Part shown: piece after piece, positions 38,839 through 40,292 of the stretch
How the letters are laid out: the number at the start of each line of letters is the position of its first letter
Numbering within the stretch: position 1 is the stretch's first letter
DNA from: Candidatus Rokuibacteriota bacterium
GTDB taxonomy: Bacteria > Methylomirabilota > Methylomirabilia > Rokubacteriales > CSP1-6
Length of the DNA stretch: 64,000 nt
Direction: 5' to 3'
NCBI GenBank assembly: GCA_003220495.1
Contig: QHSP01000015.1
Location: 1 to 64,000, forward strand
The notes under the pieces: model-generated
The model's database searches: none
Seen by the model: the letters and a program-made list of their open reading frames with translations, nothing else
What the model was told of the DNA's origin: nothing
Program-made: the position numbers and the translations under genes

Positions 38839-39147
38839 TCAGGGCAAGTCGATCTCGACCGCGGTGCCGTTCACGCGGACGGGATACACAGACACCTTGA
38901 GGCCTGGCGCAACCCGGCAGGCGCCGGTGGCGAGCGCGAAATCGTATCCGTGCCAGGGACAGATGACAGCGTCGCCTTCGAGCCAGCCCTCGGCGAGCGG
39001 GCCGTCTTCGTGGGGGCAGGTCGGGCTGGTGGCGTAGAACTGCCCGCCGCCGGCGTTGAAGACGGCGATCGTCACGCCGTCACGCTCGATCAGCGTCCCC
39101 TGGCCGACTCCGATCTCGTCGACCTCGGCCACCTTGATGTAGGGCAT
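38839..39147 (-). CDS. Rieske [2Fe-2S] ferredoxin
   Basis: A 102-aa soluble Rieske-type protein. Ligands are Cys44 and His46 in SPTCPHEDGP and Cys63 and His66 in VICPWHGYDF. It resembles Rieske ferredoxins that deliver electrons to oxygenases or act beside small redox proteins. Its ATG overlaps the TGA of the seleno-DsbA gene (ATGA), so it is translated right after it. No oxygenase subunit is near. Confidence 0.92.
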   Translation of the reverse strand: MPYIKVAEVDEIGVGQGTLIERDGVTIAVFNAGGGQFYATSPTCPHEDGPLAEGWLEGDAVICPWHGYDFALATGACRVAPGLKVSVYPVRVNGTAVEIDLP

Positions 39148-39722
39148 CAGGGTCGCTCCTGGAGCGCCTTGTCGATGATCGAGCGGAACTCTTCGATGCT
39201 GGTCGCGCCGATCACGCGCTGACCGTTGATGAGAAACGTGGGGGTGCTGTTGATCCCGAGCGCCTGCGCCTGCTCGATGTCCCGCTCGACGTCCGCCGCG
39301 AACCGCCGCTCGTCCAGGCAGCGCGCGAACGTGTCACGGTCCAGACCGAGCTCAGCCGCGTACACGAGCAGGTCGGCGCGGCGAAACGCGGGCTGGGCCG
39401 CGAAGAGGCGATCGTGGTACGGCCAGTATTTGCCCGAGGCGCCGGCGCAGCGCGCGGCTTCGTGCGCCGGGCGCGCCAGGGTATGCATCGCGAGCGGCCG
39501 ATCCTTGAAGACGAGGCGGACCCGGCCGTCATACTCCTGGAGCACCTGGGCCAGCGACCGCTGGACGAGCTGACAGTACGGTCACTGATAGTCGGAGAAC
39601 TCCACGATCGTCACGGGCGCCCCGGACGGCCCCTTGACCATGCTCGGAGACCAGGTGATCTCGACCTGAGCGAGCGCGCGCGGCGGCGACACGGCGGCGA
39701 CGAGCGCGAGCAAGAGCGTCAT
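39147..39722 (-). CDS. Putative selenoprotein: DsbA-like thioredoxin-fold protein with U-P-Y-C active site
   Basis: A 191-aa frame from ATG 39722 to the stop at 39147, interrupted by one TGA at 39582-39584 (codon 47). The signal peptide (TLLLALVAAVSPPRALA) is followed by VTIVEFSDYQ-[TGA]-PYC. In homologues the last part reads FSDYQCPYC, so TGA replaces the first active-site cysteine. After the TGA the frame continues with RLVFKDRPLAMHTLA and GINSTPTFLING (cis-proline loop) to a normal C-terminus. A GGUC-loop hairpin lies 22 nt downstream (39551-39564). I read this as a selenocysteine protein. A nonsense mutation or sequencing error is the alternative. It is followed by the Rieske gene and diverges from DoxX. 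Confidence 0.85.
39551..39564 (-). promoter_or_regulatory. Putative SECIS hairpin of the DsbA-like selenoprotein
   Basis: On the minus strand CCAGC-GGUC-GCUGG forms a perfect 5-bp stem with a GGUC loop, the apical sequence known from the E. coli fdhF SECIS. The loop begins 22-23 nt after the UGA, within the usual window for bacterial SECIS elements. An extra AGC/GCU pairing below the stem is possible. Confidence 0.75.
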
Positions 39723-39833
39723 CCAAATCGAGCTGTAGTAAACTCGCGGCGACCGACGGGCGCAGCGCGACCGGCGCTTCACGGACCGAGGATACGATGC
39801 GACCGAGCCCATCGCAACGGGCAGGGAGGACCC

Positions 39834-40292
39834 ATGCAAGACCTGGTCGATCTCGTGTTCAGCACCTATCCGTCGTGGTCTCACCTGGTCGTCCGCGTCG
39901 TGCTCGGTGTCGTCTTTTTTGCCCACGGCGCCCAGAAGACGTTCGGCTGGTTCGGCGGCCACGGGCTGTCGGCCACCATCGGCGGCTTCCGTCACATGAA
40001 CATTCCGCCCGCGGCGACCGCGCTCGCGGCGTTCACCGAGTGCTTCGGCGGGCTCGCGCTGATCATCGGCCTGCTCGCGAGGCCGGCGGCCCTCGGGTTG
40101 ATCCTCGTGATGGTGGTGGCGATCGCGAAGGTCCACGGCAAGCACGGCTTCTTCCTCAACTTCGCCATGACGCCGGGCAAGGGGCACGGCTACGAATTCA
40201 ATCTGGTGCTGATCGCGATGGCGCTGTCCATCCTGATCGGCGGTGCGGGGGCCCTGTCGATCGACCGGCTCATCGCGCCGCTCGGCGGCTAG
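39834..40292 (+). CDS. DoxX family membrane protein
   Basis: A 152-aa protein with four TM segments. LVVRVVLGVVFFAHGAQKTF, TECFGGLALIIGLLARPAAL and the C-terminal GYEFNLVLIAMALSILIGGAG are DoxX features. ATG 39834 follows GGGAGGA. It diverges from the seleno-DsbA/Rieske pair by 111 bp. In mycobacteria DoxX works with a thiosulfate sulfurtransferase and a superoxide dismutase in a membrane redox complex, so a link to thiol chemistry here is conceivable. Confidence 0.9.
   Translation: MQDLVDLVFSTYPSWSHLVVRVVLGVVFFAHGAQKTFGWFGGHGLSATIGGFRHMNIPPAATALAAFTECFGGLALIIGLLARPAALGLILVMVVAIAKVHGKHGFFLNFAMTPGKGHGYEFNLVLIAMALSILIGGAGALSIDRLIAPLGG

Follow-up and report, generated by a model that had tools for sequence, protein, structure and literature searches.

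We investigated whether a DsbA-like frame on the minus strand of the window, by which we mean the whole 64,000-nt stretch of DNA analysed here, encodes one selenocysteine (Sec)-containing protein despite a stop codon at its presumed active site. As an earlier note on this DNA had described, the frame from 39722 to 39147 is open apart from a single internal stop, a TGA at codon 47 within the motif VEFSDYQ-U-PYC (U, Sec); plain ORF calling returns two fragments, the second from GTG 39545, and thereby cuts the gene at its active site. Our analysis indicates that the product is a Sec-containing exported thiol-disulfide oxidoreductase, a reading to which we assign a probability of about 93%. The proposed U-P-Y-C oxidoreductase is well supported because the genome carries Sec machinery, the TGA recurs in many assemblies and a bSECIS-type hairpin follows it, and we infer export from a predicted signal peptide. 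For Sec at codon 47 itself, sequence evidence could hardly give greater certainty.

Translation probably begins at GTG 39782 rather than at ATG 39722, judging from the orthologs. ATG 39722, which would give a protein of 191 aa with Sec as residue 47, showed no conservation among orthologs. Of the 19 orthologs matching the motif pattern, 17 have GTG 39782 in frame behind an upstream TATCCTCGN4, with ortholog length differences at this start being multiples of three. The likeliest precursor thus starts at GTG 39782 and comprises 211 aa, with Sec as residue 67; the conserved -10-like motif ahead of it makes a leaderless start possible. The signal peptide claimed earlier for the frame is predicted from this upstream codon, where a basic n-region, a MTLLLALVAAV core and an end reading ...RALA-Q, with cleavage expected after ALA, can be recognised by eye. 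The n-region DNA CGAGTGTACTAC is strongly conserved in many orthologs, and window positions 39722-39782 carry CGAGTTTACTAC. The terminal TGA occupies 39149-39147.

Features of the Sec-DsbA locus and its neighbours in the window, with the basis or a remark for each.
Feature	Position	Strand	Basis or remark
Rieske [2Fe-2S] ferredoxin-type protein	38839..39147	-	Start overlaps selenoprotein stop (TGATG)
Selenoprotein gene, DsbA/BdbD-like	39147..39782	-	Frame, Pfam matches, ortholog starts
Thr160-Pro161, expected cis-Pro loop	39240..39245	-	Invariant across ortholog alignment
Candidate bSECIS hairpin	39549..39566	-	Comparison of orthologs
Resolving Cys50 of UPYC	39573..39575	-	Invariant across ortholog alignment
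In-frame TGA, predicted selenocysteine, U of U-P-Y-C	39582..39584	-	Orthologs have only TGA, TGC or TGT here
Predicted Sec-type signal peptide	39669..39782	-	By eye, from sequence and orthologs
Conserved -10-like motif, TATCCT/TATTCT, 6 nt before GTG 39782	39789..39794	-	Orthologs
DoxX-family membrane protein, divergent neighbour	39834..40292	+	

Profile and structure comparisons agreed on the fold family. Two Pfam families matched across the TGA above their gathering cut-offs, PF13462 (Thioredoxin_4, the best Pfam match, 121.6 bits) and PF01323 (DSBA, 87.1 bits), and the UPYC of the selenoprotein aligned with the CPYC of its relatives, bearing out the proposal that VEFSDYQ-TGA-PYC is a DsbA-like active site. 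The closest NCBIfam model, NF041057, scored 114.9 bits, below its curated cut-off of 190. An AlphaFold model, computed from 47 sequences with Cys substituted for Sec, reached a mean pLDDT of 93.6 and a pTM of 0.86, and alignment, model and structure comparison all placed the UxxC and a predicted residue-cisPro loop within a thioredoxin fold; the cis-Pro loop pointed out earlier is the invariant Thr-Pro pair, expected to be cis. The closest solved structures were C. diphtheriae DsbA/TsdA, S. pomeroyi 3gyk and B. subtilis BdbD (TMq 0.76-0.79), followed by Wolbachia DsbA and ScsC, and a profile search of PDB sequences agreed with these structural neighbours.

A Sec reading falls if the genome lacks the machinery to decode UGA, and the host genome (5.98 Mb, 159 contigs, 98.4% complete; closest named relative by protein, at 91% identity, a Candidatus Rokuibacteriota assembly, which places this soil bacterium in the Rokubacteria, phylum Methylomirabilota) encodes SelA, SelB, tRNA-Sec and SelD. 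SelB scored 356.6 bits, above the cut-off, and adjoins a SelA frame that we recognised by reading the frame, not by profile; a tRNA-Sec (69.8 bits, anticodon TCA) is found on the same contig; and SelD (336.7 bits, above the cut-off) contains an in-frame TGA as well, within CAGUASK, UxxK being a known Sec position in this protein (PMC13188914). This SelD gene, reading SCAGUASK, is on the window's contig (L148 1450-2445 (+), G000:C1:77537-78481). Across the phylum, a strict-limit search found SelB in 84 of 95 genomes; it did not find SelB in five genomes with the TGA (G008, G057, G076, G077 and G087), absences that probably reflect assembly gaps.

The TGA is conserved well beyond the window. The ortholog is present throughout the genus (nine genomes), each time with TGA at this codon; at E <= 1e-30 a relative was found in 74 of the 95 genomes of the phylum. 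About 45 related genomes share the TGA gene, and we compared 45 TGA orthologs in detail. These orthologs come from dozens of separate assemblies, share about 50-90% protein identity and keep intact frames downstream. Among the fetched loci the active-site codon of the family is TGA, TGC or TGT and none other, the Rokubacteria orthologs having TGA and the relatives from other phyla a Cys codon, TGC or TGT, so that homologues do show Cys at the Sec position (CPYC against UPYC), as had been anticipated. Because the genus is uniform (9/9) and the family codon is confined to these three triplets, the TGA is not a chance occurrence.

Comparison of the orthologs also revealed a candidate for the SECIS-type element that the earlier note had proposed looking for. 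In the window, a 5-bp core (CCAGC/GCTGG, 39564-39551) closes an apical GGTC loop (39559-39556) 22 nt after the TGA, a loop and spacing that fit the published bSECIS model (PMC13188914). In an alignment of 48 nt from the TGA, gapless over the 45 TGA orthologs, the stem was kept in all 45 (one with TCAGC/GCTGA) and loops read GGTC, GGGC, GGAC or AGGT; 93.8% of stem cells were paired, compared with at most 43.8% for slid partners. Three stem pairs had changes on both sides, the covariation score was 0.110, compared with 0.046 (sd 0.011) for shuffles (0/500), and RNAalifold recovered the same 5-bp stem unaided. Each amino acid that the hairpin encodes is specified by a single codon (CAG, CGG, TCG, CTG), next to adjoining codons that vary, an excess of codon freezing over other codons with p = 0.012 (5 vs 94 codons). 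The case for the hairpin rests on comparison because the window's own 45-nt minimum-energy fold favours another pairing (z -0.23) and the isolated 18-nt hairpin has an energy of -7.3 kcal/mol, against a published limit of <= -7.5 (PMC13188914); the median over TGA orthologs is about -11.3 kcal/mol, and in a local 30-nt ensemble the stem probability is near 1. A scan of the window for other TGA frames followed by a hairpin gave 19 mechanical matches, among which only the selenoprotein gene has its TGA in a motif recognisable by eye as redox-active.

These observations bear on three ways in which the TGA might not encode Sec. A TGA is one base from TGC or TGT, and the gene could in principle be a pseudogene or carry a sequencing error; we regard this as refuted in practice by the TGA orthologs and the hairpin covariation, since the same codon is TGA in dozens of separate assemblies, which makes sequencing error very unlikely, frames downstream are intact, there is no other disabling codon and the hairpin appears to be under selection. 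Equally improbable in our judgement is the arrangement that plain ORF calling yields, in which the TGA terminates a short exported peptide and GTG 39545 starts a protein of its own. This arrangement would split a thioredoxin fold at its active site, where UPYC aligns with the CPYC of intact relatives, and the same-locus Cys orthologs contradict it by forming one continuous frame. The openness of the frame alone would also suit decoding of the TGA as another amino acid, such as Trp; this has next to no plausibility, given that the TGA alternates only with Cys codons, that tRNA-Sec, SelA, SelB and SelD are present and that most orthologs also use TGA to end their frame.

The Cys orthologs suggest how Sec came and went at this locus. 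Within a clade of 47 proteins, 44 members have Sec and 3 have Cys (G056 with TGT, G060 and G069 with TGC); the Cys genes occupy the same locus beside the same neighbours as the Sec genes, and their hairpin has disappeared from G056 and G060 and persists in weakened form in G069. On a quick tree with SH-aLRT support only, four changes were needed with the trait column masked. This number fits a single gain of Sec and two returns to Cys within the clade, together with a Sec group apart from it in genus g4 (L171, L199). The member L171 (1498-2067 (-)) of that group is a Sec-DsbA paralog that shows no synteny with the window gene and lacks the CCAGC/GCTGG hairpin. The clade amounts to a natural experiment, with one inferred Sec origin and two same-locus Cys reversions in which the hairpin is decaying. 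One reversion sits in a genome, G060, in which SelB was not found (a single case in an unfinished assembly). The syntenic Cys ortholog of that genome (L167) retains an intact 3' stem arm, GCTGGAC, as if a remnant of a Sec ancestor.

Two further groups of the DsbA family attracted our attention. One has an in-frame TGA in FxDYV-U-PWC (L003, L116, L117, L118, L120, L121, L122 and L126; PF01323 for L116) and occurs in the host genome and several others of its genus. The other, FSDYL-U/C-PWC, has Sec in some genus genomes (TGA in L124 and L125) and Cys in others, including the host genome (TGC in L004 and L123).

How would the enzyme work? SelB and tRNA-Sec would decode the UGA under direction of the 39564-39551 hairpin, with the terminal UGA still stopping translation, and Sec would become the N-terminal, nucleophilic active-site residue of an exported DsbA/BdbD-like oxidoreductase. 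The mature monomer would cycle between two states, reduced and joined as a U-Cys selenenylsulfide; exported proteins would be oxidised and, in genomes that have a VKOR-type quinone reductase, that enzyme would reoxidise the pair. The VKOR of the host genome itself reads C-P-L-U. Oxidation is the direction we favour by a modest measure. A reductase or isomerase of the DsbG/ScsC/TlpA-like kind, reduced by DsbD/CcdA and repairing oxidised exported proteins, is the less probable reading, held at roughly one chance in three. Such a reducing role is conceivable because DsbD/CcdA proteins are also encoded: the host genome has two DsbD_TM matches, one of which adjoins a TlpA-like protein containing CAPC. 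Two further points count towards it: the structural neighbours include ScsC proteins, and Sec pairs are generally more strongly reducing than pairs of Cys. Against it, the selenoprotein is without a dimerisation domain of the DsbC/DsbG type, it most resembles the structures of C. diphtheriae DsbA/TsdA and BdbD, and VKOR, an enzyme of the oxidising pathway, is encoded in the same genome.

As to partners for an oxidising Sec-DsbA, DsbB gave no match in the 95 genomes, with a positive E. coli control. The downstream Rieske gene, described earlier as coupled, does overlap the terminal TGA with its ATG in the window, but such coupling was seen at only about 25 of some 48 loci; being coupled at about half of them and having no visible signal peptide, in contrast to the selenoprotein, the Rieske protein is not supported as a fixed redox partner.

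The single VKOR match in the host genome (L172 1474-1920 (-), G000:C57:43111-43557) proved to be a lead of its own. Its frame reads ...DLRQPCPL-TGA-IAGHALHAAVAALLG..., which places the TGA on the second active-site Cys (CPLU), and with C for U it matched PF07884 at 46.8 bits against 27.5, above the cut-off. Close orthologs were found in 5 of the 95 genomes, host included, from three genera; all five have the TGA, each followed by an invariant CGCGGC-GGTC-GCCGCG hairpin, and C45, C52 and C125-P-L-U128 are invariant among them. The protein therefore shares with the VKOR family the profile match, the loop Cys pair and the active-site motif, and differs in the TGA at the second active-site Cys. 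The genome thus seems also to carry Sec in this membrane enzyme. We found no relatives of it in plasmids, viral contigs or the PDB and no Cys version of the host's VKOR subfamily; VKOR is absent from the 119 selenoprotein families tabulated in PMC13188914, and a literature search for VKOR with Sec returned nothing relevant. Sec-VKOR is apparently undescribed and a more surprising lead than the Sec-DsbA; if real, it would be a selenoprotein family outside the 2026 catalogue, and would bring selenium into the step at which disulfide formation is linked to quinone. Because close orthologs are rare (5/95), the host VKOR cannot be the general partner of Sec-DsbA. We propose only tentatively, as something rather unlikely, a relay in some Rokubacteria in which Sec-DsbA (UPYC) is reoxidised by Sec-VKOR (CPLU) with electrons passing to quinone.

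Sec-containing DsbA-like and DsbG-like proteins have been known since 2005-2006 (PMC1088965, PMC1794560) and are listed in PMC13188914, so the suggestion that metagenomic surveys had met such proteins was correct: the 'DsbA-like protein form 1' selenoprotein (PF01323, UxxC) came first from the Sargasso Sea metagenome, where it was assigned to COG2761 (PMC1088965), and is catalogued in PMC13188914. The window protein resembles this form in scoring above the PF01323 cut-off, in its UxxC at the catalytic position and in the bSECIS-type hairpin downstream, but has PF13462 as its best Pfam match, a predicted signal peptide and its own syntenic Rokubacteria clade. COG2761, for its part, we take to be FrnE-type. 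With the 'DsbG-like' or Rcas_1661 (seleno)lipoprotein family NF041057 (PF13462, UxxC; PMC1794560, PMC9312934, PMC13188914) it shares the closest NCBIfam model, the Thioredoxin_4 domain and the UxxC, and differs in falling below the 190-bit cut-off and in having no lipoprotein Cys past the signal peptide. The window protein may already be tabulated, because a Methylomirabilota assembly with 63 predicted selenoproteins is mentioned in PMC13188914, sourced to Deng et al. 2026. B. subtilis BdbD and C. diphtheriae DsbA/TsdA have the same fold at 26-29% identity (TM-score on query 0.76-0.79), a CPxC-type active site and the expected cis-Pro; those enzymes use Cys where the window protein is predicted to use Sec. 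The window's Sec-DsbA is a well-conserved addition to the Sec DsbA-like and DsbG-like proteins already known.
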